Shown here in pieces: positions 41,542 through 60,100 of a stretch of 64,000 nucleotides of DNA. The notes beneath the pieces were generated by a model, which had not been told where the DNA came from, ran no database searches, and saw only the letters and a list, made by a program, of their open reading frames with translations. The position numbers and the translations under genes are program-made. Positions within the stretch are counted from its first letter, which is position 1, and each line of letters begins with the position of its first letter. Origin of the DNA: Serratia entomophila (GTDB lineage Bacteria > Pseudomonadota > Gammaproteobacteria > Enterobacterales > Enterobacteriaceae); assembly GCF_021462285.1 (NCBI RefSeq), contig NZ_CP082787.1:2852001-2916000 (forward strand), written 5' to 3'.

Positions 41542-41740
41542 AACTAAGTCCATTTATTTATGTTGTAGGGAAAGAAACAACGGCACCAAAATCCGTGGTA
41601 AACCTTATGCCCGGCCTCCGCTGAAAGCGAGCATGGATAACTTTTCACCACCGACGCTAAAGTGGCCGATGTTTAGTTATTAAGCATGTGCGCGACTGCC
41701 GATGTCAAAGTTTTGTTAGTCAGAAAAAACCGAGGGCGGC

Positions 41741-43159: not shown

Positions 43160-43303
43160 AACCCTAAACTGTTATATAAAAAAGTAAAATAACTGTCACT
43201 ATTATAGGCACTGTACTCCGTGCTTAACTTAACGCCAAGCTTTCCACACAAAAATTACAGCTATACTCAAGAGGTTATTTTATGTCCAACCCAAGGAGGC
43301 GCC

Positions 43304-44704
43304 ATGCTGGGTCTTGATGCACTGGAACTTGCCAGAATACAGTTCGCCTTCACCGTGTCTTTTCATATCATTTTTCCCGCCATCACCATCGGACTCGCCA
43401 GTTACCTGGCGGTGCTGGAAGGGCTGTGGCTGAAAACGCACAATGAAGCCTACCGCGATCTGTACCACTTCTGGTCGAAAATCTTTGCCGTCAACTTCGG
43501 CATGGGCGTGGTTTCCGGCCTGGTGATGGCCTACCAATTCGGCACCAACTGGAGCTTCTTCTCGGAGTTTGCCGGCAGCATTACCGGGCCGCTGCTGACC
43601 TATGAAGTGCTGACCGCCTTCTTCCTCGAAGCCGGCTTCCTCGGCGTGATGCTGTTCGGCTGGAACCGCGTCGGCCCGGGCCTGCACTTTTTCGCTACCT
43701 GCATGGTGGCGCTGGGCACCCTGATTTCCACCTTCTGGATCCTGGCCTCCAACAGCTGGATGCAAACGCCGCAGGGGCATGAGATCATCAACGGCCAGGT
43801 GGTGCCGGTCGACTGGCTGAAGGTTATCTTCAACCCGTCGTTCCCGTATCGCCTGTTGCATATGTCCACCGCCGCCTTCCTGTCCTCGGCGTTCTTCGTC
43901 GGCGCCTCCGCCGCCTGGCACCTGCTGCGCGGCCGCGATACCCCGGCGATGCGCAAGATGCTGTCGATGGCGATGTGGATGGCGTTGATCGTGGCGCCGG
44001 TGCAGGCATTGATCGGCGACGCCCACGGGCTGAATACCCTGAAACATCAGCCGGCGAAGATCGCCGCCATCGAAGGCCACTGGGAAAACCCGCCGGGAGA
44101 AGCCACCCCGCTGATCCTGTTCGGCTGGCCGGACATGCAGCGTGAAGAAACGCGCTTCAAGCTGGAAGTGCCCTACCTCGGCAGCCTGATCCTGACTCAC
44201 AGCCTGACCGAGCAAGTGCCGGCGCTGAAATCCTTCCCGCCGGAAGATCGTCCAAACTCCACCGTGGTGTTCTGGTCGTTCCGCGTCATGGTGGCGCTGG
44301 GCATGCTGATGATCCTGGCCGGAGTATGGAGCCTGTGGCTGCGCTGGCGCGGCGGGCTGTATCACTCCAGGCCGTTCCTGTACTTCATTCTATGGATGGG
44401 GCCGTCCGGGCTGCTGGCGCTGCTGGCGGGCTGGTTCACTACCGAGATTGGCCGCCAGCCCTGGGTGGTGTACGGCCTGCTGCGCACCAAGGATGCGGTT
44501 TCGGCGCATGGCGACCTGCATATGAGCATCAGCCTGCTGGCGTTTATCATCGTTTACTGCTCGGTGTTCGGCGTGGGTTACTCCTACATGATGCGCCTGA
44601 TCCGCAAAGGGCCGCAGCGGCATGAACCGCATGAAGACGACACCGAAGGCCGGCCGGCGCGCCCGCTCTCCGCAGTTAAAGACACCTTGGACGACAGGAG
44701 CTGA
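43304..44704 (+). CDS. Cytochrome bd-type quinol oxidase subunit I (CioA/CydA family, short Q-loop)
   Basis: 466-residue membrane subunit that oxidises ubiquinol and carries haems b558, b595 and d. Haem-ligand regions: SFHIIFPAITIGLA near the N-terminus (His19 equivalent) and FPYRLLHMSTAAF (His186 equivalent). The quinol-site stretch GRQPWVVYGLLRT is present. It lacks the long Q-loop insertion of E. coli CydA (522 aa), placing it with cyanide-insensitive CioA-like enzymes. ATG 43304 follows AAGGAGG; upstream in-frame codons are unsupported. Two bases separate it from subunit II. Confidence 0.92.
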   Translation: MLGLDALELARIQFAFTVSFHIIFPAITIGLASYLAVLEGLWLKTHNEAYRDLYHFWSKIFAVNFGMGVVSGLVMAYQFGTNWSFFSEFAGSITGPLLTYEVLTAFFLEAGFLGVMLFGWNRVGPGLHFFATCMVALGTLISTFWILASNSWMQTPQGHEIINGQVVPVDWLKVIFNPSFPYRLLHMSTAAFLSSAFFVGASAAWHLLRGRDTPAMRKMLSMAMWMALIVAPVQALIGDAHGLNTLKHQPAKIAAIEGHWENPPGEATPLILFGWPDMQREETRFKLEVPYLGSLILTHSLTEQVPALKSFPPEDRPNSTVVFWSFRVMVALGMLMILAGVWSLWLRWRGGLYHSRPFLYFILWMGPSGLLALLAGWFTTEIGRQPWVVYGLLRTKDAVSAHGDLHMSISLLAFIIVYCSVFGVGYSYMMRLIRKGPQRHEPHEDDTEGRPARPLSAVKDTLDDRS

Positions 44705-44706
44705 AC

Positions 44707-45714
44707 ATGGGCATCGATCTTCCGTTGATTTGGTTTGTGATCATCGTGTTCAGCACCATGATGTACGTGGTGATGGACGGTTTTGATTTGGGTATTGGCA
44801 TCCTGTTCCCGTGGGTGAAAGACAGCGGTGACCGTGACGTGATGATGAACACCGTCGCTCCGGTGTGGGACGGCAACGAGACCTGGCTGGTGCTGGGCGG
44901 CGCGGCGCTGTTTGGCGCCTTCCCGCTGGCCTATTCGGTGATCCTCGACGCCCTGGCGATTCCGCTGACCCTGATGCTGTTCGGGCTGATTTTCCGCGGC
45001 GTGGCCTTCGAGTTCCGCTTCAAGGCCACGGCGGAAAAACGCCATATCTGGGATAAGGCGTTTATCTGGGGGTCCATCTTCGCCACCTTTAGCCAGGGGG
45101 TGGTGGTCGGCGCCATCATTAACGGGTTCCCGGTTAACGGCCGCAGCTATGCCGGCGGCGCGCTGGATTGGCTGACGCCGTTCGCGCTGTTCTGCGGGCT
45201 GGGGCTGGTGGTGACCTACGCCCTGCTCGGCTGCACCTGGCTGGTGATGAAAACCGCCGGCGACCTGCAGGCGCGCATGTATCGCCTGGCGACGCCGCTG
45301 CTGATAACCCTGCTGCTGGTGCTGGCGGCGGTCAGCATCTGGACGCCGATCGCCCATCCGGAGATCGGCAGCCGCTGGTTCACGCTGCCGAACCTGTTCT
45401 GGCTGCTGCCGGTGCCGGTGCTGGTGTTGCTCAGCGCCTGGGGCATCCAGCGCGGGGTGAAGCGCGGCGCGCACTATTCGCCGTTTATGCTGACCCTGTT
45501 GCTGGTGTTTCTCGGCCTGAGCGGCCTGGGCATCAGCATCTGGCCGCTGCTGATCCCGCCGTCCATCAGCCTGTGGGACGCCGCCGCACCGCCGCAAAGC
45601 CTCGGCTTTATGCTGGTGGGCGCGCTGTTTATCATCCCGATCATTCTGGTTTATACCTTCTGGAGCTACTACGTGTTCCGCGGCAAGGTCAGCCATGAAC
45701 ATGGCTATCACTGA
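44707..45714 (+). CDS. Cytochrome bd-type quinol oxidase subunit II (CioB/CydB family)
   Basis: 335 residues, eight or nine membrane segments. The CydB signature is present: MYVVMDGFDLGIGILFPWV near the N-terminus, then APVWDGNETWLVLGGAALFGAFP. It forms the heterodimer with the upstream subunit. ACAGGAGCTGAAC precedes ATG 44707. It is followed 14 bases later by the DUF2474 gene. Confidence 0.94.
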   Translation: MGIDLPLIWFVIIVFSTMMYVVMDGFDLGIGILFPWVKDSGDRDVMMNTVAPVWDGNETWLVLGGAALFGAFPLAYSVILDALAIPLTLMLFGLIFRGVAFEFRFKATAEKRHIWDKAFIWGSIFATFSQGVVVGAIINGFPVNGRSYAGGALDWLTPFALFCGLGLVVTYALLGCTWLVMKTAGDLQARMYRLATPLLITLLLVLAAVSIWTPIAHPEIGSRWFTLPNLFWLLPVPVLVLLSAWGIQRGVKRGAHYSPFMLTLLLVFLGLSGLGISIWPLLIPPSISLWDAAAPPQSLGFMLVGALFIIPIILVYTFWSYYVFRGKVSHEHGYH

Positions 45715-45728
45715 TGAGGGAGGCAAGC

Positions 45729-45878
45729 ATGCAAGATAAAACCGCATCTGTACCGGCCCCCTGGTGGAAACGCGTCGGCTGGCTGGTGATCATCTGGAGC
45801 GCCAGCGTGCTGGGGCTGTTCGCCGTCGCCTCGCTGTTCCGCCTGTTGATGACCGCCGCGGGGATGAAGTCGCATTAG
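45729..45878 (+). CDS. DUF2474 small subunit of the CioAB-type oxidase
   Basis: 49 residues: MQDKTASVPAPWWKRVGW leads into one helix (VIIWSASVLGLFAVASLF) and a short tail. Short DUF2474 proteins are encoded last in many cioAB operons and are thought to play a role like CydX in assembly or stability. GAGGGAGGC precedes ATG 45729. It ends 81 bases before the convergent desaturase gene. Confidence 0.8.
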   Translation: MQDKTASVPAPWWKRVGWLVIIWSASVLGLFAVASLFRLLMTAAGMKSH

Positions 45879-45958
45879 CGCCAGGCGCTCCATGTCGTCG
45901 AAGACCAACGCCGGATCCGGCAACGCTTCGCAGATCCGGCAATCGATGTGGGAAAAGG

Positions 45959-47044
45959 CTAGTCCGGCTTGCGCCCCATCGCGCTGAGAAAACGCTGTTG
46001 CAGCCGCAGCAGCTCTTCCAGCTCCAATAGCCGGTAATCGATGCCGAAACGCGGCGCTACCTCGCTGATGATGCGGCTCAGCGCCGGATAATGCCGGTGG
46101 CTCCAGTGCGGGAACAGGTGGTGCGTCAGGTGCAGGTTGGCCCCGCCCAGCCAGTAACCCAGCCAGCGCGGCCGGGTCAGCCAGTCGAAGGTGGTGGCGA
46201 ACACGTGGTGGTACCACCCATGCGGCATCGCTCCCTGCGCCGGCGCCTGGTAGAAATTCGCCTTGGCCCAGTGAGTGCCGATGATCAGCATCACGAACAG
46301 CAGGGAAGACAGCATCTGGCTCAGCAGATAAATCAGCAGGACTTGCCCCACGCCGATCGCCGGCGGCAACAGAGAGCATGGGATCGCCAGCGCCAACGCC
46401 AGGTGCGAAACTTTGCCCGCCAGAAAGGCGCCCCAGCCGCGCGCACCCCGTTGCGCCATCCGCGCCGCCACCCGGGTTTTCCCCGCGCGATCCAGCCAGT
46501 CGAACAGCCAGATGTAATACGGGAAGGTCATCGCCGCCACCAGCGGCCAATAAAATCGCTGTGCGCGCATCACGGGCCGCCAGCGCTGAAACGGCGTCTG
46601 CCGCAGCACCCCATTGGCGTCGATATCCGGATCGTAGTGCTCGATGTTGTTGTGCGCATGATGAAAAATAACGTGCCGCACCCGCCAGCAATCGGGATCC
46701 AGCCCCAGCGGAACGCTCACCACGCCATTAAGCCAGCGGTTGGCCCAGGGCCGGCGGAAAAACGCGTTGTGCGACGCGTCGTGCACCACGTTCACCGTCA
46801 GGAACATACCGGTAAAAATAAAACCGAAATAGCAGGCGAAAAATGCCCAACCGCTCTGCTGCCGCAGGCTCAGGCAATAACAGAGCGCGCACAGCGCCAG
46901 CAGCAGCACAACCTTCGCCAACATGCCGCCGTCGGCGAAGCGGTGGTCCCGATTGTCGGCCAGATAGGCCTGCGCAGCCTGCATCAGTGCGCGGTGCAAA
47001 CCGGCGTCGTCGCGCCGATACGCCAGTGGGCGCAGCGATTTCAT
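45959..47044 (-). CDS. Fatty acid desaturase 2 (tandem copy), last gene of the lipid operon
   Basis: 361-residue membrane di-iron desaturase. Three His boxes are visible: HDASHNAFF (about 108), HHAHNNIEHYD (about 148) and HLTHHLFPHWSHRHYP (about 305). Family members introduce double bases of unsaturation or hydroxyl groups into acyl chains with oxygen; the exact substrate is unknown. It aligns along its whole length with the upstream desaturase (e.g. HRHYPAL, GTHWA), indicating tandem duplication. Its ATG overlaps the upstream stop by 4 bases. It is the eighth gene of an operon of overlapping lipid genes. Confidence 0.9.
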   Translation of the reverse strand: MKSLRPLAYRRDDAGLHRALMQAAQAYLADNRDHRFADGGMLAKVVLLLALCALCYCLSLRQQSGWAFFACYFGFIFTGMFLTVNVVHDASHNAFFRRPWANRWLNGVVSVPLGLDPDCWRVRHVIFHHAHNNIEHYDPDIDANGVLRQTPFQRWRPVMRAQRFYWPLVAAMTFPYYIWLFDWLDRAGKTRVAARMAQRGARGWGAFLAGKVSHLALALAIPCSLLPPAIGVGQVLLIYLLSQMLSSLLFVMLIIGTHWAKANFYQAPAQGAMPHGWYHHVFATTFDWLTRPRWLGYWLGGANLHLTHHLFPHWSHRHYPALSRIISEVAPRFGIDYRLLELEELLRLQQRFLSAMGRKPD

Positions 47045-48123
47045 GGCTGCCCCATCCGGCGTAAAAACTGTTGCTGCTGCGCCAGCAGCGTACGGTAATC
47101 GATGCAGCGGTAATCCATGCCGTGCTGCGCCGCCAGCCGCCCCACTATCGCGGCCAGCGCCGGATAGTGGCGATGATTCCAGCCCGGGAACAGGTGATGG
47201 GTCAGGTGATAGTTCAGGCCGCCGGTCAGGTGATTCAACCAGCGCGGCGAGGTCTGCCAGTCGCAGGCGGTGGCGAAATTATGGCGGTACCAGCCGTGGG
47301 GCATGCTGTCGCCCGCCGGCGGCGAATAAAACTCGGCCTGCGCCCAGTGGGTCCCCAACAGCAGGAACACCACCAGCAGCGAGGCGCACATCTGGCCGAT
47401 CGCATAGGCCAGCAGCACCCAGCCCCAACCGATGCCGTGCAGGTGGCACAGGATCAGCGGCACCACCAGCACCAGCGCCACATGGAGCAATTTGCACAGC
47501 ACGAACAGCGCCCAACCGCCGCGCCCCGCCAGCACGCGTTTTTCCCGCAGCGGCGTTTTATCGAGCCGATCGGACCAATCGAAAATCCACGCGATGTAGG
47601 GTAGCGAGAGCGCGGCGATCAGCGGCCAGTACAGATGCTGATAGCGCATATGCGGCCGCCAGCGCTGGAACGGCGTCTGGCGGAAAAAGCCGTTCTCTTC
47701 GGTGTCCAGATCGTAGTGTTCGACGTTGGCATAGAGATGATGGAAGGCCACGTGGCGCACCCGCCAGTAATCCGGATCCACCCCCAGCGGCAGCGTCACC
47801 AACCGCCCCACCAGGCGATTGGCCCAGGGCGCGCGCAAGAAGGCGTTATGCGAAGCATCGTGATTGACGTTGACGTTGAGCAGCATGCCCATGGCCACGA
47901 ACAGGAAATAGCAGAGGAAAAACGCCCAGGGCTGATGCTGCATCAGGCTCAGGGCATAAAACCCGACGCACAGCGCCAGCAACAGCGCGGCCTTGGCCAG
48001 CCGCGCGGTATCGGCATAGCGATGATCGCCCGCCAGGCAGGCGTGCGCCGCGCGCTTAAGATCGCGATGAAACGCCTGCTCGCCATCGGAGGGGAAATGC
48101 AGCGGCGGTAATGATTCAGCCAT
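47041..48123 (-). CDS. Fatty acid desaturase 1 (tandem copy)
   Basis: 360 residues, with His boxes HDASHNAFL, HHLYANVEHYD and YHLTHHLFPGWNHRHYP. Four or more membrane segments surround them, as in membrane acyl desaturases. A close paralogue follows it directly. Start at ATG 48123 (MAESLPPL) overlaps the preceding gene by 8 bases; the frame is open further upstream but inside that gene. Electron donors (ferredoxin or cytochrome b5) are not encoded in the operon. Confidence 0.9.
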   Translation of the reverse strand: MAESLPPLHFPSDGEQAFHRDLKRAAHACLAGDHRYADTARLAKAALLLALCVGFYALSLMQHQPWAFFLCYFLFVAMGMLLNVNVNHDASHNAFLRAPWANRLVGRLVTLPLGVDPDYWRVRHVAFHHLYANVEHYDLDTEENGFFRQTPFQRWRPHMRYQHLYWPLIAALSLPYIAWIFDWSDRLDKTPLREKRVLAGRGGWALFVLCKLLHVALVLVVPLILCHLHGIGWGWVLLAYAIGQMCASLLVVFLLLGTHWAQAEFYSPPAGDSMPHGWYRHNFATACDWQTSPRWLNHLTGGLNYHLTHHLFPGWNHRHYPALAAIVGRLAAQHGMDYRCIDYRTLLAQQQQFLRRMGQP

Positions 48124-49249
48124 GCGGTTCCTCCACAGCGGCCGGTGCAGCCACTCGCCCCCAGCCCAGCGCCACGCACAGGGCATGCAGCGCCACGGCG
48201 GCCATGGCGATATGCCAATAGCGCTGTGGCCAGCCAAGATAGCCGATAAACAGCAGTGGCATGCCCAGCGCGATCAGCAGCCAGACGGCGCTCGCCCACG
48301 GCCGCCCTTCCGTCATGCCGCCCAGCGCCACCGAGCCCAACGCCAGCAGCACCAGCAGTGCCATTTGCGGCCAGCTGATGTCGCCGTAACCATAACCGTA
48401 TTGGTAGACGTAACCGACCACCAGCGAGAACAACAGCATGGCGCCGCTGAAGACGCTGAGCGCCGAACGGCGGTCGCGCGGCCGGCCCGGCGCCGGGCGC
48501 CAGGCCAGACGGAAATAGCACAGGAACGGCAGATTACTCGCCCAAAACGGATTGGCGGACGATTTATCGCCGCTGACGCCGTAAACGAACGGCTTATCCG
48601 GCAGGCTGGGGCAAAAGGTGCCGAACAGTTTGTCCCAAAAGATAAAGCTGCCGCCGAAGTTCTTGTTCGAATAGGCCAGATCTTTGACGTGATGCACCCG
48701 GTGGTGGGCCGGCGTGACCAGGATTTTTTCCAACACGCCAAGCCGCGGCGTCAGCGCATTGTGGTTAAACAGCTGAATGCTGTAATGCAGAATCGAGACC
48801 GTGACAAAGACCGACAGCGGCACGCCCAACAGCGCCAGCAGCAAGAAGAACGGGATCGAGGTCAGCGATGAATACCAAGAGTTGCGCACCCCCAGCGACA
48901 GATTAAAGTGCTCGCCCTGATGGTGCACCAGGTGCACCGCCCAGAGCACCCGCAGATGGTGGTGCAAGCGGTGCAGCCAGTAAAAACCGAAGTCCCACGC
49001 CAGCAGCGCAAACAGCCACATCAGCAACGGCGGCCAGGCATCCAGCAGGCCCAGGCTGAAGTGCGCGGCCACGTAGCCGTAGCAGGTGATTTCCAGCCCG
49101 CGGAACAGCCACAGCATGATGTGGCCGGAATTCAGGTTGAACACCAGATCGTGCCAGTTGACCTGCCGACGCTGCACCCACTGCAACACCAGCGCCTCGC
49201 CCACCACCACAAACAGCATGAACACTATCGGCATCGCCAGACTGCTCAT
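48116..49249 (-). CDS. Sterol desaturase/fatty acid hydroxylase-family membrane protein
   Basis: 377 residues. The His-rich di-iron site of this superfamily is clear: WLHRLHHHLRVLW (about 90), HLVHHQGEHFN (about 106) and PAHHRVHHVKD (about 190), followed by FGGSFIFWDKLFGTF, typical of the alkylglycerol-monooxygenase-like branch. The C-terminal third adds further membrane helices. It likely hydroxylates or desaturates a lipid with oxygen. 4-base overlap with the PAP2 gene upstream. Confidence 0.9.
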   Translation of the reverse strand: MSSLAMPIVFMLFVVVGEALVLQWVQRRQVNWHDLVFNLNSGHIMLWLFRGLEITCYGYVAAHFSLGLLDAWPPLLMWLFALLAWDFGFYWLHRLHHHLRVLWAVHLVHHQGEHFNLSLGVRNSWYSSLTSIPFFLLLALLGVPLSVFVTVSILHYSIQLFNHNALTPRLGVLEKILVTPAHHRVHHVKDLAYSNKNFGGSFIFWDKLFGTFCPSLPDKPFVYGVSGDKSSANPFWASNLPFLCYFRLAWRPAPGRPRDRRSALSVFSGAMLLFSLVVGYVYQYGYGYGDISWPQMALLVLLALGSVALGGMTEGRPWASAVWLLIALGMPLLFIGYLGWPQRYWHIAMAAVALHALCVALGWGRVAAPAAVEEPHG

Positions 49250-49866
49250 CCTATTTCTCCTTTCACGTTCTCTCTGCGCGCGCTTAACGCGCGCTGCACC
49301 AGCCAGCCGACGAACAGCGCCAGCAGCGCCCCGCTCACCAGATCAATCAACAGGTGGCGGCGCAGCTGCAAAATGGAAAACGCAATCGCCAACGCCCACA
49401 GGATAAATAACGCCGTCCTCAGCTTACGCCTTCGGTCGCTCAGCGCCCACACCGCCAATACCGTCAGCGCCATATGCAGCGAAGGCAGGCAATTTTGCCG
49501 CGAGTCCACCGCGCTCAGCGCCGCCAACAGCCGTGAACTGAGGCCCGTACCGCCGTCCGCCGGGTAAGTCATGGTGGTGGGCCACAGCAGATACACCGCC
49601 CCGGCGCTCAATGCGGTCAGCTGCATTGCGGCGGCCAGCCACCTGACCCGGCCCACCGGCGCCAGCAGGTAACCGAGCGGAATAATGATAAAAAACGACA
49701 GATACAGCCAAATGGCCGCCGGGTTAAACGGGATCCAACGGTCGATAGCCGATGGCGGGATCACGGCGCCCGCCCCCTGCAGGCGATCGGTGCAGGTATA
49801 AATCACCCCGACCAGCCCCCAGCCCAGCAACATCTGCCACAGCCGATACGGCAGCGTTTTCATCAT
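49246..49866 (-). CDS. PAP2-type phosphatase or headgroup transferase
   Basis: 206 residues, about six membrane segments. PAP2 motifs: NCLPSLHMALTVL (about 125; PSxxH) and LRRHLLIDLVSG (about 173; R-x-x-x-x-x-D-type). The first motif (KxxxxxxRP) is not obvious, resembling the inositol-phosphotransferase-like PAP2 branch. It may remove a phosphate from, or transfer a head group to, the operon lipid. ATG 49866 overlaps the adenylating-enzyme stop by 4 bases. Confidence 0.82.
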   Translation of the reverse strand: MMKTLPYRLWQMLLGWGLVGVIYTCTDRLQGAGAVIPPSAIDRWIPFNPAAIWLYLSFFIIIPLGYLLAPVGRVRWLAAAMQLTALSAGAVYLLWPTTMTYPADGGTGLSSRLLAALSAVDSRQNCLPSLHMALTVLAVWALSDRRRKLRTALFILWALAIAFSILQLRRHLLIDLVSGALLALFVGWLVQRALSARRENVKGEIG

Positions 49867-51146
49867 GCCACCGCCTGGCGAATAATTCGCCGCCGCTTGC
49901 TGTCGAACTGCGGCATCACCGCCTGCGTCGTCAGCTGCCACTCCAGACGGTCAGCGGCGATGCCCTGGCGTGCAAACAGCGCGCTGAGCTGCGCCTGGCA
50001 GTGCGCCAATTGTTCCGTGCTGCAGTCGGCCAGCAGCTGCAGGCGCCGTTCACCGTGCTGAATCAGCCGGTAGTCGCAGCTCAGCGGCAGCGCGTTGGCG
50101 ATCGCGCGGCTACACAGATCGGCAAACACCACCTGCGGCTGCTGCCGCACATTGGGTAAAACCAGTTGGTCGTCCCGCCGCCCTTCAATGCGGGCAAGCG
50201 CCATTGTCGGTTGCCCGCAGGGGCAAGGTTCCGCCCGCCGCACCAGCACGTCGTCCAACCGATAACGCACGATTGGCTGAGTGCTGCGGGTAAAATCGGT
50301 GATCAGCGGCGTAAAACGCTGCTCGTCTATCCACTGCGGTTCGATATGCAGAAACTCCTCGTTCAGATGCAGAGTGCCGTGCGAACAGCTGGCGGCCAGA
50401 AAACCTTCCGTCGCCTGATACACCTCGCCTACCGCCGGAAACACCTGCGCCAGCAGCCGCCGATCCTGTTCCTCCAACACCTCCGCCACCGAAATCACTT
50501 TTTTGACCGCCAGCCGGATCTGCCCGGCCTGCACCGCCAGCGCCAGGGCGCGCAGCACCTGCGCCGGCGCCACGATAATGGTCGGCGCCTGCCGTTCCAG
50601 CTGCGGCAATTGCGCGGCGAAGGGAGCGAACAGATCGTAAAACGCCAGGCTCAGCCAGCGGTTGTTCACGCTGTGGTACAGGTTGTTGTCCGCCCGCAGA
50701 AACAGCGCGACGCGCTCGCCGGCGAACAGGCCGTCCGGCAGCATTTTCGCCAGCATGCCGCCGGCCCACACCCGCTGCTCACGCGGGCTGACGACAAAAA
50801 TGCCGCGCCGGCCCGAGGTTCCCGACGACAACCCCACGCTGTATTTGCCGATTTTCGGGCTGAAATCCCGCTCCAGTTCGCTGCGTTGGGCGCAGGCCAG
50901 CAACGCGTCACGCTGCAATCCGGCGGTATTCATCCGGTCGAACTCCGCCATCATCAGCGCTTTGTCCATCAGCGGCCAGGCGCCGATCGGCCGCCGGCTG
51001 TAGGGCCTGAAATAAGGGCTTCGCGCCAGCACCCGCCGGGAAAACTTCTTCAACCGCCGCGCCTGATGCGCCTCCAGCGCCTGGCGATCGCGAAACCTCA
51101 GGCGGCGGGCGCGGAAATAGTGCCACAGCGTCAGCAGCGGGATCAT
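49863..51146 (-). CDS. Adenylate-forming enzyme related to F390 synthetase, PaaK and LuxE
   Basis: 427 residues. The nucleotide-binding loop is GLSSGTSGRRGIFVV (about 105-119); IISVAEVLEEQD-like VISVAEVLEEQDRR, GEVYQATEGFLA (about 245) and VRYRLDDVLVRR (about 295) follow, and a Cys pair in AEPCPCGQPT is typical of the F390-synthetase/PaaK clade. Such enzymes activate a carboxylate as acyl-AMP and pass it to CoA, a protein Cys or another acceptor. Here the acid is probably a fatty acid. GAGGGGG precedes ATG 51146, which overlaps the MBL gene by 4 bases. Confidence 0.82.
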   Translation of the reverse strand: MIPLLTLWHYFRARRLRFRDRQALEAHQARRLKKFSRRVLARSPYFRPYSRRPIGAWPLMDKALMMAEFDRMNTAGLQRDALLACAQRSELERDFSPKIGKYSVGLSSGTSGRRGIFVVSPREQRVWAGGMLAKMLPDGLFAGERVALFLRADNNLYHSVNNRWLSLAFYDLFAPFAAQLPQLERQAPTIIVAPAQVLRALALAVQAGQIRLAVKKVISVAEVLEEQDRRLLAQVFPAVGEVYQATEGFLAASCSHGTLHLNEEFLHIEPQWIDEQRFTPLITDFTRSTQPIVRYRLDDVLVRRAEPCPCGQPTMALARIEGRRDDQLVLPNVRQQPQVVFADLCSRAIANALPLSCDYRLIQHGERRLQLLADCSTEQLAHCQAQLSALFARQGIAADRLEWQLTTQAVMPQFDSKRRRIIRQAVA

Positions 51147-51949
51147 AAGTCCCCCTCGTGGCACAGCAGAATTTCCGCGTTGCCGCTCGCCCACAGCTGG
51201 TTCAGCCGCTCCAGCGTGCGGTAGTAGGCTTTAGCGTCGTCCATCACCAGATTCGCCAGCGCGGAGGGGCCGCGCAGTTGCTGATAGCTCAGCGGCGACC
51301 AGGCCGCGTCGCTGGCCAGCAGCGTCCAACCGCCGTCGGTGAGAATAAAGGCGCCAAGGTGGCCGGCCGCATGGCCGGGCAATGGCACCAGCACGATCTG
51401 CCCTTCGCTGCCCGGCAGCGCATAGCCCCGGTCGAAAGGCGCCAACAGCGCAGGCAGGCTGGTCTGCGCAAACGCCTCGATAAACTGCAGACCGCTTTCA
51501 AAGCCTTCGGGGATCAGGCCGGGGATAAAGGCGCGTTTCAAGGCGGCAAAGCCCCGCAACTCGCGGGTTTGCCGCCAGCCCTCGCCGGAGCAGATAAAAT
51601 CGAGATGAGCGAAGTCGCGCAGCCCGGCAATGTGATCGGCATGAAAATGCGAAACAATCAGCGCCTGAATGTCATTGGCGGCATAGCCGGCGGCGCTCAG
51701 CTGCTGCGCCAGCGATTCGGCGGGATCGAAGTACACCGGCGTCATCTGCCGATAGATGCGGAAAATACCCGTCTGCGTCTGCTGCTGAAAATAGCGCGCA
51801 TAGCCGGTATCCCACAGCCAGCGGCGTTCACCCACCTCCAGCAGATAGGCACGGGCCGGGAATTTGCAGACGCGGAATCCGGCGCCGCGCAACGCCATGC
51901 AGCCAATATGGGTGCAGTAGCCCACCTCAAAGGCGGTCACCTTAGCCAT
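51143..51949 (-). CDS. MBL-fold hydrolase of the lactonase-like branch
   Basis: 268 residues. Zinc motif SHFHADHIAGL at 100-110, third ligand in PLPGHAAGHLG (about 184) and Asp in LLASDAAWS (about 205). The N-terminal layout (a Cys- and His-bearing first strand, LWDTGY) resembles N-acyl-homoserine-lactonase-type proteins. In this operon it may instead hydrolyse an acyl thioester, beta-lactone or ester intermediate; this is inference. ATG 51949 follows GGGAGGTG and overlaps the reductase gene by 8 bases. Confidence 0.82.
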   Translation of the reverse strand: MAKVTAFEVGYCTHIGCMALRGAGFRVCKFPARAYLLEVGERRWLWDTGYARYFQQQTQTGIFRIYRQMTPVYFDPAESLAQQLSAAGYAANDIQALIVSHFHADHIAGLRDFAHLDFICSGEGWRQTRELRGFAALKRAFIPGLIPEGFESGLQFIEAFAQTSLPALLAPFDRGYALPGSEGQIVLVPLPGHAAGHLGAFILTDGGWTLLASDAAWSPLSYQQLRGPSALANLVMDDAKAYYRTLERLNQLWASGNAEILLCHEGDL

Positions 51950-52958
51950 GCGCCACACCTCCCTGCAGGTTGAGCCACTCGCCGGTCAGGCGGATCCCCT
52001 CCTCCATCGAATAGCGTGGCCGGTAACCCAACTCCTCCACCGCGCGAGCCCGGCTCAGCGTCATGTCGTAATGCACCGCCGCCACGCTATAGCGCGTCAG
52101 CAACGGCTCTTTGCCGGTAAACCGCGCCGCCAGCTCCAGCCCTCCGGCCAGCAGGTGCAGCAGCGGATAAGGCACCGCCTGCAGCCGATAGCGCAGACCC
52201 AGCTGGCCGCGCAGCAGCGAATCCAGCATGTCCGCCAGCCGCTGCGGCTGATGATTGGTAATGTTATAGGCCGCACCTGAAGGCAGCTGCCGCCGGCGGC
52301 TGGCCAGATCCATCGCATGCACCACGTTCAGCACGAAGGTCAGATCCAGCAGCGCTTTGCCGCCTCCCGGCAGGCGCAGCACGCCGCGATCGCGATCGAG
52401 CTGCCGCAACAGACGCGGAACAATCACCCGGTCATGCGGGCCGAACAGGCCCCTGGGGCGCAAAATAACGTAGGCGGTCTGCGGGTAGCGCGGCACCCGC
52501 GCGCGCAGCTGCTGCTCCGCGGCATATTTGCTGGCGGCGTAATGGTTGGCGAAGCGCCGGGCGCGGTAGGTTTCCTCAATATCCTGATGGGGCCTGAAAT
52601 CAAAATAGACAGCCGGCGTGGAAATATGGACAAAGCGCCGCACGCCGCAGCGGCCCGCCGCCTCCGCCAGTTTCTCCGTCGCGGCCACGTTGGCCTGATA
52701 AAACTCCGCTTTGCTGCCCCAGGGCGCGGATTTGGCCGCGCAGTGCCAGACCCAATCGCAGCCGTTCACCAACTGCCGGCACTGTTCCGCCGTGGCCTCG
52801 GCCAGATCCAGCGGACTGAACTCGGCCCCCAGCTGCCGCAGCGCCTCGCCGGCATGCCGGTCGCGCCCGGTGGCGCGCACCTGATGGCCCGCCTCCAGCA
52901 GCCACTGCGCCGCGTTGCGCCCCAGCCCGCTGGTGGCCCCGGTGACCAGCACCTTCAT
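51942..52958 (-). CDS. NAD(P)-dependent extended SDR, OleD/3-beta-HSD-like reductase
   Basis: 338 residues. Rossmann motif TGATSGLG (6-13), active Ser in VHISTPAV (113) and catalytic YxxxK as Tyr140-Lys144 in NHYAASKYAAE. The sequence with FGPHDRVIVPRLL and PGGGKALLDLTFVLNVVHAM is typical of the 3-beta-hydroxysteroid dehydrogenase/OleD group, which reduces beta-keto groups of long alkyl acids. Direct partner of the ketosynthase, whose stop it overlaps by 4 bases. Confidence 0.87.
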   Translation of the reverse strand: MKVLVTGATSGLGRNAAQWLLEAGHQVRATGRDRHAGEALRQLGAEFSPLDLAEATAEQCRQLVNGCDWVWHCAAKSAPWGSKAEFYQANVAATEKLAEAAGRCGVRRFVHISTPAVYFDFRPHQDIEETYRARRFANHYAASKYAAEQQLRARVPRYPQTAYVILRPRGLFGPHDRVIVPRLLRQLDRDRGVLRLPGGGKALLDLTFVLNVVHAMDLASRRRQLPSGAAYNITNHQPQRLADMLDSLLRGQLGLRYRLQAVPYPLLHLLAGGLELAARFTGKEPLLTRYSVAAVHYDMTLSRARAVEELGYRPRYSMEEGIRLTGEWLNLQGGVAHG

Positions 52959-53959
52959 GGCAACAGCACCATGCCGGCCAGCGACAGCCCGGCGGCGGTG
53001 CCGATCAGCATCACCGGCTTGCCGGGGTTAAAACGGCCGTCGGTCACCGCGGCATGCAGCGCCGTGGGGATCGACGCCGCCACCTGATTGCCGTGATAGC
53101 GGTAAATATCCACCAGCGCCTCACTGGAGACGTGCAGCCGCTTGCGCATATGCTCCAGCGAAAGATGGCTCGCCTGATGCGGCACCACGGTCGCTATCTG
53201 CGCCAGCGTCAGCCCGCTGGCCGCCAGCAGCCGGGCCAGGTAGCCCTCGATCAGCGCCGACGCCTGGCGGAACAGCGGTTTGCCCTGCATATGAAACAGG
53301 AAGTCGCTGCCGGTCATGCCGGCGCGCGGGTTGCGCCTGGTGCCGCCGGCGCGGATCTCGCACAGCTCGCTGCCTTCGGGATAGGTTTCCACCAGGCTCG
53401 CCAGAATGCCGCTGGCGCCGTCGCCGCGCTCCACGATGGCGCAGGCCGCCCCGTCGCCAAAAATCAGCGAGGACTCTTCGTGCTCCCAGTCGATGCCGCG
53501 CGAAGCCAGGTCCGCCGAGACGATGGCGATGCGCCGGTAGGTGCCGGCGTTCAGCAAGCCGGCGGCCACCTGCAGCGCGGAGATAAAGCTGACGCAGCTG
53601 CTGTTGATGTCGAAACCGGCGGTGCCCGGCGCCAACCCGGCCACCTTGAGGATGTGCGCGGCGGTGCAAGGCAGCGCCTGCACCGATATCGCCGATGCAG
53701 AAATCAGCAGATCGATAGACTGCGCGGCGATATCGCAACGGGTTAAGGCGTTTTGCAGCGCGGCGGCGGCCAGCTCGGCCTGGCTGGCGTCATCCGCGGC
53801 GTGAAAGCGGTGAATAATGCCGGAGCGTTTTTCGACGTAGCCGGCCGGTTTGCGCAGCAGACGGTCCAGCGCGGAGGATTCCACGCGGTTTGGCGGCAAC
53901 GCCGCCCCGGTGGCGATAACTTTCAGAGGCAGCAACGCGGAACAAGATTGTGTGGTCAT
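52955..53959 (-). CDS. Beta-ketoacyl synthase III-like enzyme (FabH/OleA family), first gene of the lipid operon
   Basis: 334-residue thiolase-fold condensing enzyme. Catalytic triad: Cys in DINSSCVSF (about 121), His in VPHQASH (about 259) and Asn in YRYHGNQVAAS (about 289). It would join an acyl thioester to a second acyl group or malonyl carrier. GDGAACAIV and the C-terminal GTAAGLSLAGMVL fit the family. The start at ATG 53959 has only a weak binding site. A divergent FabH rather than the housekeeping one is likely, given the operon context. No acyl carrier protein gene lies in the operon. Confidence 0.88.
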   Translation of the reverse strand: MTTQSCSALLPLKVIATGAALPPNRVESSALDRLLRKPAGYVEKRSGIIHRFHAADDASQAELAAAALQNALTRCDIAAQSIDLLISASAISVQALPCTAAHILKVAGLAPGTAGFDINSSCVSFISALQVAAGLLNAGTYRRIAIVSADLASRGIDWEHEESSLIFGDGAACAIVERGDGASGILASLVETYPEGSELCEIRAGGTRRNPRAGMTGSDFLFHMQGKPLFRQASALIEGYLARLLAASGLTLAQIATVVPHQASHLSLEHMRKRLHVSSEALVDIYRYHGNQVAASIPTALHAAVTDGRFNPGKPVMLIGTAAGLSLAGMVLLP

Positions 53960-54120
53960 TATTGTTGTGAGTTAACCTGAATATCCGTAAAGCGATCTCC
54001 CGGCGCAGCCTCGGCTGCGGCGGATCATCCCCGGTTTTTACATCCCAAAACGCCCCTTCAGGGCCATCGATTTTTTTTATGTGCGACAGACGGCCGGCAT
54101 CCGCCGGCGAAGCAAGCGTA

Positions 54121-54149
54121 ACAATACTGAGATATTAAGTTTACGGCAA
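54121..54149 (-). promoter_or_regulatory. Candidate promoter of the lipid operon
   Basis: On the minus strand TTGCCG (54144-54149) and TATTGT (54121-54126) are separated by 17 bases, each matching 4 of 6 consensus positions. It lies about 160 bases upstream of the ketosynthase start, in the only gap of the region. The surrounding 53960-54232 gap otherwise shows a GC hairpin and nothing coding. Confidence 0.35.
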
Positions 54150-54200
54150 GGAAGCAAAAATGTGCGGGCGGGGATCACAATTGCGGGCGGACGTTAGCGG

Positions 54201-54223
54201 CCGCCGCTGTGGTTCAGCGGCGG
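54201..54223 (-). terminator. GC hairpin after narI
   Basis: CCGCCGCTG-TGGTT-CAGCGGCGG is a perfect 9-base-pair stem 10 bases after the narI stop, without a T-run. It may terminate weakly or allow some read-through from nar into the lipid operon. Confidence 0.45.
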
Positions 54224-54232
54224 CGGAGAGGG

Positions 54233-54910
54233 TCAGCGGCGGTTACGCACCAGCTGATAGCGACGGGTCAGGTACTCTACCGGTACGCTCCAGATATGCA
54301 CCAGGCGGCAGAACGGGAACAGTATGAACAGCGTCATGCCCAGTACCATATGCAGCTTGAAGATCGGCGCCACCCCTGCCAGGTAGTGGGAAGCGCCGGC
54401 GTGGAAGGTCACCACCGCCTGCGCCCAGGCCACCAGCTTTATCATTTCGCTGCCGTCCATATGCTGGGCGGAGAACGGAATGGTCAGCAGGCCGAGGCAC
54501 ACCTGCACCACCAACAGCGTCAGGATCATGATATCGGCAAAGCTGCTGGTGGCGCGCACCCGCGGGTTGGTCAGGCGGCGTTTCAACAGCAGCGCGCCGC
54601 CAACCAAGGTCATCAGGCCGCAGGCGCCGCCGGCGATCATCGCCAGCTTCTGCTTCACGTCGATCGGCAGGAAGGATTCATACATCCAGTGCGGCGTCAG
54701 CATGCCGAGGAAGTGCCCGGCGAAGATGCCGAGAATACCGATGTGGAACAGGTTGGAGGCCAGCCGCATGCCCTTTTTGTCCAGCATCTGGCTGGATCCG
54801 GCGCGCCAGCTGTACTGACCGTAGTCATAGCGCAGCCAGCTGCCGAGCAGGAAGATCGCTCCCGCCAGATAGGGGTAAATATCAAAGAAGAACAGGTTCA
54901 AAAATTGCAT
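54233..54910 (-). CDS. narI: Respiratory nitrate reductase gamma subunit NarI
   Basis: 225 residues, as in E. coli. Five membrane helices and two haem b groups; ligand His pairs are in [17 protein letters not shown] (about 52-68) and [11 protein letters not shown]...KLHMVLG (about 185-205). It oxidises menaquinol or ubiquinol and passes electrons to NarH. Start ATG 54910 (MQFLNLFFF) is 2 bases after the narJ stop. Last gene of narGHJI. Confidence 0.96.
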
Positions 54911-54912
54911 GA

Positions 54913-55632
54913 TTATTTTCCTTTGGTTGCCGCTGCAGCCAGATCCAGATACTGCGGCGCCACTGCGCCGGCAAAGCGCCGCTGGTGCGCGGTCTGTTGT
55001 TCGGAACCGCAGCCCGGTTGTTCGCCAAGAAACGTGATCTGCTCCTCCTCCCACACCGCATCCAGCGCCTGCGGCGTATCGTCGCGCGCTTCCTTCGCCA
55101 CCTGAGTTGCCAACACCTGCGCCTGCACCTCGCTGCCGGACAGCGCCAGCAGCAGGTCAAACAGCACCGCATAAGGGCTTTCCCGCTGCCGCAGCCGGGC
55201 GCCCAGCAGCGCCAGAATCGGCGCGATGTCCTGCAGCCCTTCGCGCGCCTGCGTTGCGCTGCGGCTGGCCAGATACTCCAGATACAACGGCAGGAAGTCC
55301 GGCAGCTCGCGGCTGTCGATCTGCAACCCGGCGGCGCGATACTGCGCCATCAGGTCGACCATCGCCTGGCCGCGATCGCGCGATTCGCCGTGCACGTGCT
55401 CGAACAGCAGCAGCGAGGTGGCGCGGCCGCGGTCGAACAGCTCGCAATAGTCGGCCTGCGTGTCCAGTAACGGCCGGGCGCACAGGCGGCGGATAAACAG
55501 GATCAGCTGCGCGCTGTGGTGCAGATCCAGCTCGCTGGCCGGTTCCAGCGCTTCGATCAGCGTCTGCTGATGGTCGAATAGCGCCTGCTCCGGGTAGTCC
55601 AGCAGGCGGGCGATCGCTTTCAGGCTGATCAT
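54913..55632 (-). CDS. narJ: Nitrate reductase molybdenum cofactor assembly chaperone NarJ
   Basis: 239 residues of the TorD/NarJ fold, starting [21 protein letters not shown]. The chaperone binds the NarG N-terminus and helps insert molybdopterin. [20 protein letters not shown] (about 98-117) is the conserved core. ATG 55632 overlaps the narH stop as TGATG; the in-frame TTG one codon earlier is less likely. Confidence 0.95.
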
Positions 55633-57173
55633 CAAGCATCCTCCGGGCGTACGGTTTTTTGCGTCACGTCGATGGCGTCGATGCGGCGGCTGTTGAACAG
55701 GTTGAACTTGCCGTCGCTGCCGTGGCAGCCGTCGCCGAAGCTGAATCCGCAGCCCTTGCTTTCCGGGAAGGCTTCGCGCGCCAGCTCGCGGTGGCTGGAC
55801 GGCACCACGAAGCGGTCCTCATAGTTGGCTATCGCCAGATAGCGGTACATTTCCTGCGCCTGCGCCTCGCTCAGCCCGACCTGCTCCAGCGCGCTGGTAT
55901 CCACCACGCCGTCGACGGTCTCTGCGCGTTTGTAGTGGCGCATCGCCAGCATGCGCCTGAGCGCCAGCAACACCGGTGCGGTGTCGCCGGCGGTCAGCAG
56001 GTTGGCCAGGTACTGCACCGGAATGCGCAGGCTTTCTACGTCCGGCAGCACGCCGCTGTGCGCCAGCTCGCCGGCGTCGGCGGCCGACTGAATCGGCGAC
56101 AGCGGCGGCACGTACCACACCATCGGCAAGGTGCGATACTCCGGGTGCAGCGGCAGCGCCAGCTTCCAGTCCATCGCCATTTTGTACACCGGCGACTGCT
56201 GGGCGGCTTCGATCACGCCCTGCGGCACGCCGTCCGCCAGCGCCTGAGCAATCACTGCCGGGTCATGCGGATCGAGGAAGATATCCAACTGGCTTCGGTA
56301 CAGATCCTTATCGTTTTCCACCGCCGCCGCCTGCTCGATGCGATCGGCGTCGTACAGCAGCACGCCGAGGTAGCGAATGCGGCCGACGCAGGTCTCCGAG
56401 CACAGCGTCGGCTGGCCGGCCTCGATGCGCGGGTAGCAGAAGATGCACTTCTCGGACTTGCCGCTCTTCCAGTTGAAGTAGATTTTCTTGTAGGGGCAAC
56501 CGGTCAGGCACATGCGCCAGCCGCGGCATTTATCCTGATCGATCAGCACAATGCCGTCTTCGCCGCGCTTGTAGATCGCCCCGCTCGGGCAGGTGGCGAC
56601 GCAGGCCGGGTTCAGGCAGTGTTCGCATAAACGCGGCAGATACATCATGAAGGTGTTTTCGAACTGGCCGTACATCGCCTTTTGCATGTTGTCGAAGTTT
56701 TTGTCCTGCGAACGCTTTTCGAATTCGCCGCCGAGGATCTCCTCCCAGTTCGGACCCTTTTCAATCTTCTTCATGCGCTGGCCGGTGATCAGCGAGCGCG
56801 GACGCGCCACCGGCTGATGTTTGCCCTGCCTGGCGGTGTGCAGATGCTGGTAGTCGTAGTCGAAGGGTTCGTAGTAGTCATCCAGCGCCGGCACGTCCGG
56901 GTTGGCGAAGATTTTCGACAGCAGGCCGACGCGGCTGCCCATGCGCGGTTCCAGCTTGCCGTTGATTTTACGGATCCAGCCGCCCTGCCACTTCTCCTGA
57001 TCTTCCCAGGCCTGCGGATAACCGACGCCGGGCTTGCTTTCCACGTTGTTGAACCAGGCGTACTCCATGCCTTCGCGGCTGGTCCAGACGTTCTTGCAGG
57101 TTATCGAGCAGGTATGGCAACCGATGCACTTGTCCAGGTTCAACACCATGCCGACTTGAGAACGAATTTTCAT
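55632..57173 (-). CDS. narH: Respiratory nitrate reductase beta subunit NarH
   Basis: 513 residues carrying three 4Fe-4S and one 3Fe-4S cluster. Cys groups: CIGCHTCSITCKNVW (about 16), CEHCLNPACVATCPSG (about 185), and CRGWRMCLTGCPYKK, where a Trp replaces one Cys and marks the 3Fe-4S cluster, as in E. coli; KCIFCYPR follows. Start at ATG 57173 (MKIRSQVGMVLNLDKC), overlapping narG by 4 bases. Confidence 0.97.
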   Translation of the reverse strand: MKIRSQVGMVLNLDKCIGCHTCSITCKNVWTSREGMEYAWFNNVESKPGVGYPQAWEDQEKWQGGWIRKINGKLEPRMGSRVGLLSKIFANPDVPALDDYYEPFDYDYQHLHTARQGKHQPVARPRSLITGQRMKKIEKGPNWEEILGGEFEKRSQDKNFDNMQKAMYGQFENTFMMYLPRLCEHCLNPACVATCPSGAIYKRGEDGIVLIDQDKCRGWRMCLTGCPYKKIYFNWKSGKSEKCIFCYPRIEAGQPTLCSETCVGRIRYLGVLLYDADRIEQAAAVENDKDLYRSQLDIFLDPHDPAVIAQALADGVPQGVIEAAQQSPVYKMAMDWKLALPLHPEYRTLPMVWYVPPLSPIQSAADAGELAHSGVLPDVESLRIPVQYLANLLTAGDTAPVLLALRRMLAMRHYKRAETVDGVVDTSALEQVGLSEAQAQEMYRYLAIANYEDRFVVPSSHRELAREAFPESKGCGFSFGDGCHGSDGKFNLFNSRRIDAIDVTQKTVRPEDA

Positions 57174-60100
57174 TGGGTTTTCTCCTGCTGGCTGCCCTGC
57201 GCGTAGTCGTTGCCTTCGCCGTCTAACCAATCGATATTGTTCATCTTGCGCACCACCACGAACTCATCGCGGTTGGAGCCGACGGTGCCGTAGTAGTTGA
57301 AGCCGTAGGCCAGCTGCGCGTAACCGCCGATCATGTGGGTCGGTTTCGGGCAGGCGCGGGTCACCGAGTTATGGATGCCGCCGCGCTGGCTGGTGATTTC
57401 CGAGCCGGGAATATTCACGATGCGCTCCTGGGCGTGGTACATCATGGTCATGCCGGCCGGGATACGTTGGCTGACCACCGCCCGCGCCGTCAGCGCGCCG
57501 TTGGCGTTGAAGGCTTCGATCCAGTCGTTGTCCGCAATGCCCAGATCTTTGGCGTCGTCTTCGCTCAGCCAGACGATCGGCCCGCCGCGCGACAGGGTCA
57601 GCATCAGCAGGTTGTCGCTGTAGGTGGAGTGGATACCCCACTTCTGATGCGGCGTCAGGAAGTTCAGCGCTTTCTCTTTGTTGCCGTTCGGCTTGCTGTT
57701 CAGCAACGGCTGCGCAGCGCGGGTGTCGATCGGCGGCCGGTACGCCAGCAGGCTTTCGCCGAAAGCGCGCATCCATTCGTGATCCTGATACAGCTGCTGA
57801 CGGCCGCTGAGGGTGCGCCAGGGGATCAGCTCATGCACGTTGGTGTAGCAGGCGTTGTAGGACACATGTTCGTCTTCCAGCCCGGACCAGGTGGGGCTGG
57901 AAATGATTTTGCGCGGTTGGGCCTGGATATCGCGGAAGCGAATTTTTTCGTCTTCCTTGTTCAGCGCCAGATGACGATGATCGCGCCCGGTGATGTTGCT
58001 CAGCGCCTCCCAGGCTTTCACCGCCACCTGGCCGTTGGTTTCCGGCGCCAGCGACAGGATCACTTCCGCCGCATCGATGGCGCTGTCAATCTTCGGCCGC
58101 CCCGCCGCCGGGCCGTCGGCCTTCACGTAGTTCAGCCGTTTCAGGAAGTCGATCTCGGTCTGGGTGTTCCAACTGATGCCTTTACCGCCATTGCCCAGCT
58201 TGTCCAGCAGCGGGCCAAGCGAGGTGAAGCGTTCGTAGGTCGCCGGGTAGTCGCGTTCCACCGCAATGATGTGCGGCGCGGTTTTGCCGGGAATCAGGTC
58301 GCATTCGCCCTTTTTCCAATCCTGCACGCCGTAAGGCTGCGCCAGCTCGGCGGCGGAGTCGTGTTGGATAGGCAGGGTCACCACGTCGGTTTCCTGGCCC
58401 AAATGGCCGACGCAGACGTCGGAGAACGCCTTGGCGATGCCCTTGTAAATCTCCCAGTCGCTCTTTGAATCCCAGGCCGGATCGACCGCCGCCGACAGCG
58501 GGTGAATAAACGGATGCATGTCCGAGGTATTCATGTCGTCTTTTTCGTACCAGGTGGCGGTCGGCAGCACGATGTCGGAATACAGACAGGTGCTGGACAT
58601 GCGGAAGTCGAGCGTCACCACCAGATCCAGCTTGCCTTCGCCGCCCCGTTCGCGCCATTCCACCTCTTCCGGCATCACGCCGCCCTGCTGGCCGAGATCC
58701 TTGCCCTGAATGCCGTGCTCGGTGCCCAGCAGGTATTTGAGCATGTACTCATGGCCCTTGCCGGAGGAGCCCAGCAGGTTGGAGCGCCAGACGAACAGGT
58801 TGCGCGGGAAGTTCTGCGGGTTATCAGGCTGCTCGGCGGCGAAGCCCAGCGCGCCCGACTTCAGGCTGTCGACGGTGAACGCCACCGGCGTCTGGCCGGC
58901 GGCTTTGGCCTGCGCCGCCAGGTGCAGCGGGTTGGTGCCCAGCTGCGGCGCCGACGGCAGCCAGCCCATGCGCTCGGCGCGCACGTTAAGGTCGATCAGG
59001 CTGCCGCTGAAGCGCGATTTATCCGCCAGCGGCGACAGCAGTTCATCGGTACCGACGGTTTCGTAACGCCACTGGCTGGCGTGGTTGTAGAAGAACGACG
59101 TGCTGTTCATATGACGCGGCGGACGCTGCCAGTCGAGGCCGAACGCCAGCGGCAACCAGCCGGTTTGCGGCCGCAGCTTTTCCTGGCCGACGTAGTGCGC
59201 CCAGCCGCCACCGCTTTGGCCGACGCAGCCGCAGAAGATCAGCATGTTGATCAGCCCGCGGTAGGTCATATCCATATGGTACCAGTGGTTGACGCCTGCG
59301 CCGACGATGATCATCGAGCGGCCGCGGGTTTTCTCGGCGTTTTCCGCGAACTCACGGGCGATGCGGATGATATTGTGGCGCGATACGCCGGTGATCTGCT
59401 CGGCCCAGGCCGGCGTATAGGCCTTGACGTCATCGTAGCTCTCGGCGCAGTTGGCGTCGTTCAGGCCGCGTTCCAGGCCGTAGTTGGCCAGCGTCAGATC
59501 ATAGACGCTGGTCACCAACGCCTCGCGGCCGTCCGCCAGGCGCAGGCGTTTTACCGGCAGCTTGTGCAACAGGATCTCTTCCAGCGCGACGCTGTTGACA
59601 TGTTCGCCTTCGGCGCCGCCGCTCTTGATGCCGCCGAAATACGGGAAGCCCACTTCGGCCACCTCGTCATGGCTGCCCAGCAGGCTCAGCTGCAGCTCGA
59701 CGTCCTGCCGGTCTTTGCCTTCGCGCTGCTCGAGGTTCCACTTGCCCTTTTCGCCCCAGCGAAAACCGATGGAGCCCTGCGGCACCACCGGTTCGCCGCT
59801 GCACCGATCGATAGCGACGGTTTTCCACTGCGGATTATTTTCTTGCCCCAGGCCGTCCACCAGATCGGCGGCGCGCAGCAGGCGACCGGCGACGTAGTAC
59901 CCACCTTCACGCGGCTCCAGCAACACCAGCATCGGCATGTCGGTATAGCGGCGCACATAGTCGCGGAAGTAGCTCACCTCGCGGTCGAGGTGGAACTCTT
60001 TCAGCATCACGTGGCCCATCGCCAGCGCCATCGCGCTGTCGGTGCCCTGCTTGGGGTTCAGCCAGTGGTCGCACAGCTTGGCGACCTCGGCGTAATCCGG

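Follow-up and report, generated by a model that had tools for sequence, protein, structure and literature searches.

What is made by the eight overlapping genes at positions 45959–53959 of a 64,000-nucleotide stretch of the Serratia entomophila chromosome (NZ_CP082787.1, hereafter the window)? They are read from the minus strand and lie end to end: each of the eight open reading frames (ORFs) has an ATG start and, these starts being taken, the junctions overlap by 4, 8, 4, 4, 4, 8 and 4 bases in the order of transcription. They encode a ketosynthase (KS, 334 amino acids), a reductase of the short-chain dehydrogenase/reductase family (SDR, 338), a metallo-beta-lactamase-fold hydrolase (MBL, 268), an adenylating enzyme (427), a PAP2 membrane protein (206), an FA_hydroxylase-type oxygenase (377) and two desaturases, Des1 (360) and Des2 (361). 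The original prediction described this overlapping array, from KS to second desaturase, and its families, and both descriptions hold; the families are borne out by Pfam and NCBIfam, apart from the adenylating enzyme, for which only NCBIfam gives a match. The same prediction saw in the array an assembly line dedicated to an uncharacterized lipid. The operon is indeed dedicated and conserved, but the unit is a four-gene core followed by an exchangeable tail, and not one fixed line of eight steps.

The evidence comes from a scan of contigs that used 13 aligned adenylating enzymes and gave at least 594 stretches matching a pattern, at least 584 of them confirmed relatives. The best 80 were kept as named loci; these are the closest relatives only, and their gene content was tallied with tblastn. 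KS, SDR, MBL and the adenylating enzyme, of family TIGR02304, are found together in 77 of the 80, the exceptions being L089 and L092, where the KS is missing from the locus, and L101, a contig of 5.8 kb. Fifty-six of these 77 core loci also hold PAP2, hydroxylase and desaturase, so the neighborhood check supports a dedicated lipid operon whose genes are kept together. Two of the 56 carry a GT21 (glycosyltransferase) tail as well, five other core loci have the GT21 tail alone, and five have PAP2 alone (three Xenorhabdus loci with PAP2 ahead of the core, a 5.1-kb contig, and a Uliginosibacterium locus which has ATP-grasp and GNAT genes besides). PAP2 and hydroxylase are present in two loci, both near a contig end, and only hydroxylase and desaturase matches in one. 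Neither tail is seen in eight, although the contig of L088 and L090 stops just past the core. The gene order is mostly the same, with a desaturase ahead of the KS in a few loci.

The tails that follow the core consist of PAP2, hydroxylase and one or more desaturases; of a reductase, a GT21 enzyme, a protein without family match and a UGT-type glycosyltransferase; of a sulfotransferase; or of an ATP-grasp and GNAT pair. The GT21 gene, present in 7 of the 80 named loci, matches ceramide glucosyltransferase; Buttiauxella (L057) and Citrobacter sp. R56 (L068) are examples that have the GT21 tail and no other. The protein of this tail without significant Pfam or NCBIfam match is common to Enterobacterales and Fusobacterium (L067:16194-16748 and L031:4040-4684).

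The core is also found on replicons labeled as plasmids. In a plasmid collection 43 records contain a relative, and in nine of the ten examined the four core genes are all present, though in some they lie apart or are ordered differently; these nine come from E. coli, Burkholderia, Ketogulonicigenium, Paenibacillus, Fusobacterium, Paraburkholderia, Pseudomonas sp. FeN3W, Pontibacillus and Paracoccus. The tenth, the P. amygdali plasmid pMPPla107, has a TIGR02304 gene (L032:6968-8263) and an ATP-grasp homologue in the locus, and none of the other core genes. A search of plasmids with the hydroxylase gives 60 records, all below 60% identity, and among the eight rows listed the best three are E. 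coli and Burkholderia operon records. No relative was found in phage records at E 1e-5. Records of Paenibacillus, Fusobacterium and Rhodobacterales thus have the core genes together, and tails are exchanged in records of Pseudomonadota, Bacillota and Fusobacteriota. When the core genes are concatenated and a tree is built with FastTree, Pseudomonas and Snodgrassella/Neisseriaceae loci are nested among those of Enterobacterales, which suggests transfer. Some relatives are decayed: L028 is a degraded cluster, the KS is split in two ORFs in P. caricapapayae (L041:7155-8192), and the MBL gene in two ORFs in L084 (L084:9172-9983).

Residue conservation was read from alignments of 61–91 rows per gene, with one row per locus. 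In the KS (52955..53959, minus strand, as for all the genes of the operon), Cys122 is kept in 86 of 87 rows, with a gap in the remaining one, and His261 and Asn291 in all 87. The closest PDB match is MxnB (4v2p, 159.6 bits), followed by CorB (152.2) and FabH (4dfe, 148.8); PqsD (3h76, 74.1) and OleA (3s23, 43.7) are weaker. The NCBIfam FabH model gives 193.7 bits, under its cut-off of 292.1, and a separate FabH homologue, 28% identical to the KS, is encoded in the same genome (G000:C1:1954230). The glutamate of OleA and PpyS is replaced by phenylalanine in FabH. At this position, aligned through Val94 of MxnB, the KS has Leu in 82 rows (Leu96 in the window), Ile in 4 and a gap in 1. According to the parts of PMC4578411 that were available, MxnB and CorB carry Val94 and lack the glutamate; a partial text of PMC5724707 describes them as joining two chains. 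Because Leu or Ile stands in place of the glutamate, the KS is by its sequence FabH/MxnB-like, not OleA-like, and the OleA half of the FabH/OleA-type label in the original prediction has to be given up. OleA-type head-to-head condensation was likewise set aside after alignment with MxnB and CorB and use of the published residue mapping, the glutamate being absent. The KS shares with MxnB, CorB and FabH the KAS III family, the Cys-His-Asn triad and a hydrophobic residue instead of the glutamate, but these enzymes stand in polyketide synthase (PKS) or fatty acid synthase (FAS) settings, whereas the KS is linked with an SDR, an MBL hydrolase and TIGR02304.

The second core protein (51942..52958) is an extended SDR in which Tyr140 and Lys144 are invariant or nearly so across loci. 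Its best NCBIfam models are those of OleD (161.8 bits for the Shewanella model and 158 for another), well below the cut-off of 580; the second SDR found in the GT21 tail of L067 also has OleD as its best curated models. The MBL hydrolase (51143..51949) keeps His101, His103, Asp105, His106, His193, Asp214 and His264, invariant or nearly so. Its predicted structure and alignment display the fold and the metal-binding residues of N-acyl homoserine lactone (AHL) lactonases. AHL lactonases have an active-site tyrosine three residues after the bridging aspartate. AiiA and AiiB have Tyr there, but the operon protein has Trp217 (88 of 89 rows, Tyr in one), so that the signature tyrosine of the family is missing, and scores remain below the curated cut-offs for AHL lactonases (AiiA, AiiB, GcL) and 4-pyridoxolactonase.

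The adenylating enzyme (49863..51146) matches TIGR02304 with 584.2 bits, for a cut-off of 251.9, and matches nothing in Pfam, AMP-binding included, even with the E value relaxed to 1. The SSGTSG loop, Glu247, Asp299 and Lys417 are invariant or nearly so. It shares adenylation motifs and distant PDB matches with PaaK-type ligases and coenzyme F390 synthetase, but forms a clade of its own. In the available passages of PMC2649909, a paper on ladderanes, and of PMC5467263, F390-like genes are named in other settings only. A transposon mutant of P. syringae pv. actinidiae in a gene labeled coenzyme F390 synthetase has a virulence score of 2 in the part of PMC9823363 that was accessible; orthology is not shown and this mutant is not used as evidence. 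The same excerpt lists a nearby tag in an anthranilate-synthase-type component. A simple motif check and a reading of N-termini found no anthranilate-synthase-type gene next to L041 and L042, two loci of the P. syringae group.

The tail begins with PAP2 (49246..49866), a PAP2_3 protein (PF14378, 37.9 bits for a gathering threshold of 27) with PSLH and RHxxxD motifs, in which Asp121, Asn125, Ser129, His131, Arg170, His171 and Asp175 are invariant or nearly so. The nearest predicted folds and the best profile match are inositol phosphorylceramide (IPC) and sphingomyelin synthases (AUR1, SMSr), tied with the phosphatase LpxE; NF052609 gives 19.8 bits against a cut-off of 480, and matches weakly in 7 of 23 relatives. 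The PAP2 family of the presumed finishing step is as predicted, but the likeness of the protein to a ceramide head-group transferase looks no weaker than its likeness to a phosphatase. It is followed by the hydroxylase (48116..49249), a membrane oxygenase of the sterol-desaturase superfamily, and by the membrane fatty acid desaturases Des1 (47041..48123) and Des2 (45959..47044), whose histidine boxes, like those of the hydroxylase, are invariant or nearly so. Des1 and Des2 are identical in 199 of 364 aligned columns, and are on this basis tandem paralogues. In a rough count, 39 of the 58 named loci (out of 80) with a desaturase match above 100 bits have one desaturase place and 19 have two. 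Since the expected catalytic residues are invariant or nearly so, the whole set looks functional. In the window, KS, SDR, MBL and PAP2 are nearer to the S. quinivorans locus L037, and the hydroxylase and both desaturases nearer to the S. marcescens locus L039, as if the stretch 45959–53959 had been recombined. Polyyne clusters are defined by a dedicated acyl carrier protein (ACP) and a thioesterase together with desaturases. Among the eight proteins, Pfam and NCBIfam detect no ACP, hot-dog thioesterase or alpha/beta thioesterase, and the operon was not retained as a polyyne cluster.

The resemblance of two alternative tails to ceramide enzymes raises the question of a link with sphingolipid synthesis. 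The same genome does contain a serine palmitoyltransferase (NF047599; 574.6 bits for a cut-off of 500 on the piece scanned, and 612.8 in the scan of the genome sample). The gene (G000:C1:3276686-3277858, in L160) is outside the window, about 0.37 Mb away, with one TAG in the matched range and an open frame of 419 amino acids; judging by eye from their N-termini, its neighbors look like fatty acyl-AMP ligase and polysaccharide/flippase genes. NF047599 exceeds its cut-off in 10 of the 149 genomes of the family sample, that is, in 2 of the 18 with TIGR02304 and in 8 of the 131 others; the two with both are the genome of the window and one of the same genus. The canonical sphingolipid pathway was therefore rejected as a general explanation, serine palmitoyltransferase being under the cut-off in 16 of the 18 TIGR02304-bearing genomes. 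Nearest folds and best sequence matches nevertheless tie the two alternative tails to IPC and sphingomyelin synthases (PAP2_3) and to ceramide glucosyltransferase (GT21). On these counts the operon does not seem to depend on serine palmitoyltransferase, and the core itself is the likelier source of the acceptor lipid.

We tentatively favor, at somewhat less than even confidence, a polar-lipid operon of two modules: a beta-hydroxylated acyl lipid would come from the core, to be given a head group on its hydroxyl and oxidized in its chains by the tail. With the substrates and the order of steps that we infer, the adenylating enzyme would activate an acyl chain, which would be loaded on Cys122 of the KS and extended, most likely by a FabH-type decarboxylative condensation. 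The SDR would reduce the beta-keto group to a hydroxyl, and the MBL hydrolase would release or open an ester, a thioester or a lactone. PAP2 might then transfer a phospho head group onto the hydroxyl, in the manner of IPC and sphingomyelin synthases on ceramide, or trim it, while the hydroxylase and the desaturases would use O2 to oxidize the chains. This tail gives way in relatives to GT21/UGT glycosylation, to a sulfotransferase or to the ATP-grasp/GNAT pair. Glycosylation, sulfation, ligation and phosphate transfer by the tails would all suit a core product that bears a hydroxyl and, probably, a carboxyl group as well. A bolder version, which we consider rather doubtful, is that of a previously undescribed class of ceramide-like beta-hydroxylated polar lipids in gut, plant and insect bacteria, built by a four-enzyme core free of serine palmitoyltransferase. 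Its interchangeable head-group modules would provide phospho groups (AUR1/SMSr-like PAP2), sugars (ceramide-glucosyltransferase-like GT21), sulfate or an amino-acid unit.

The operon is not restricted to Serratia, the genus named in the original prediction. TIGR02304 is over its cut-off in 24 of 30 Serratia genomes, but also in 18 of 149 genomes of the family sample, where SDR and MBL genes adjoin it in all 18 (short loci); in the phylum sample 7 of 398 genomes have it over the cut-off, and the core is present in other phyla. In addition, a seven-gene stretch with a single desaturase is found at 80% coverage or more in 671 of 5,426 complete E. coli genomes, about one in eight, including one record labeled ST131. 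In Nissle 1917 and ATCC 25922, the two chromosomes whose position was read, it lies between narI and tRNA-Tyr genes; at the corresponding site, MG1655 has narI, ychS, rttR and tyrV and no operon. In the window too, narI, narJ and narH (54233..57230, minus strand) are the upstream neighbors: narJ and narH match ORFs of an annotated E. coli locus, narI is named by reading and position, and 273 bases separate it from the KS gene on the same strand. Since the loci that bear narJ (9 of the 80 named) all belong to Serratia, Escherichia or Leclercia, the narI side is probably the old position of the operon, lost in some lineages. The TspE4.C2 typing fragment, searched with one forward primer, has no match in 36 loci. 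The locus L007 (NZ_CP141085.1 78257-99528) is on a 385-kb E. coli record labeled plasmid which contains the narK-tdk stretch of the chromosome, operon included; either the replicon is unusual or the record results from a faulty assembly.

Downstream, a convergent pair of genes for a cytochrome bd-type oxidase (43220..45714, plus strand), cioAB-like by reading, only flanks the operon; a short plus-strand ORF that follows (about 45720–45880) presumably encodes a small oxidase-associated membrane protein, DUF2474-like. Rfam gives no match in 40000–60000, and a sigma-70 scan upstream of the operon gives no site (0.3 expected).

How do other products compare with such a polar lipid? The nearest PDB matches of the KS, MxnB and CorB, are chain-joining enzymes in which Val94 aligns with Leu96 and the glutamate is missing, as would suit a pathway related to those of myxopyronin or the Pseudomonas quinolone signal (PQS): the adenylating enzyme would prime, the KS would couple two activated acyl units, with the MBL protein serving as the thioesterase, and the product would be a small, diffusible molecule (a ketone, pyrone or hydroxyketone) whose side chains are modified by the tail. 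We regard this as unlikely. FabH scores nearly as high as MxnB, so that the KS match is not decisive, and PqsD is weaker; a pyrone requires no reductase, yet nearly every core has one, and ceramide-type head-group transferases would be odd partners of a small signal. The OleABCD logic combines a condensing enzyme, the OleD reductase and an adenylating enzyme. A similar trio is present here, the SDR of the core, like the second SDR of the GT21 tail in L067, has OleD as its best models, and the MBL protein, with its lactonase fold, could open a beta-lactone formed by the adenylating enzyme after head-to-head condensation and reduction. Nevertheless, this route is quite improbable: the glutamate is replaced in the KS, OleA is a distant match, the OleD cut-off is not reached, no OleB-type alpha/beta hydrolase is detected among the eight proteins (Pfam, E 0.001), the adenylating enzyme belongs to another family, TIGR02304, without Pfam AMP-binding match, and membrane enzymes foreign to OleABCD are added.

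The operon could also dismantle or repair unusual lipids, by means of a lactonase or esterase, a ligase, a reductase and a thiolase-like KS working in reverse. Ligases, hydrolases and SDRs are known from catabolism, and the KS belongs to the thiolase superfamily; but its triad is that of condensing enzymes, the desaturases and the hydroxylase suggest construction, and none of the eight genes is a beta-oxidation gene or a transporter, which makes this option very improbable indeed. KS, SDR, hydrolase and desaturase would, on the other hand, be a suitable set for free 3-hydroxy (or estolide) long-chain fatty acids, released by the MBL protein and finished by the desaturase. Raised 3-hydroxyoctadecaenoic acid (C18-3OH) is reported for Nissle 1917, which has the seven genes behind narI while MG1655 has none there, in the available passages of the reviews PMC8995832 and PMC12140471. 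However, these passages name no gene, ordinary FAS intermediates could be the source, and PAP2 and the hydroxylase would be left unexplained; free acids are thus a rather improbable end product.

In the literature searched, which was partial and did not include most subscription journals, no paper on the gene set, and no pathway of known product that corresponds to it, was among the matches listed; this is weak evidence of absence, in line with the original prediction, which names no described Serratia product for the set. If the polar-lipid reading is true, the widely used E. coli strains Nissle 1917 and ATCC 25922, as well as the record labeled ST131, carry an unassigned lipid pathway missing from K-12 MG1655 at this site, and lipid inventories of E. 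coli drawn up from K-12 would fall short for about one sequenced genome in eight. Sphingolipid-like finishing chemistry would then exist in organisms without recognizable sphingolipid synthesis. In records from Pseudomonadota, Bacillota and Fusobacteriota the core stays constant and the head-group tails are exchanged, which offers a comparative design in which the head group may be predictable from the genes.

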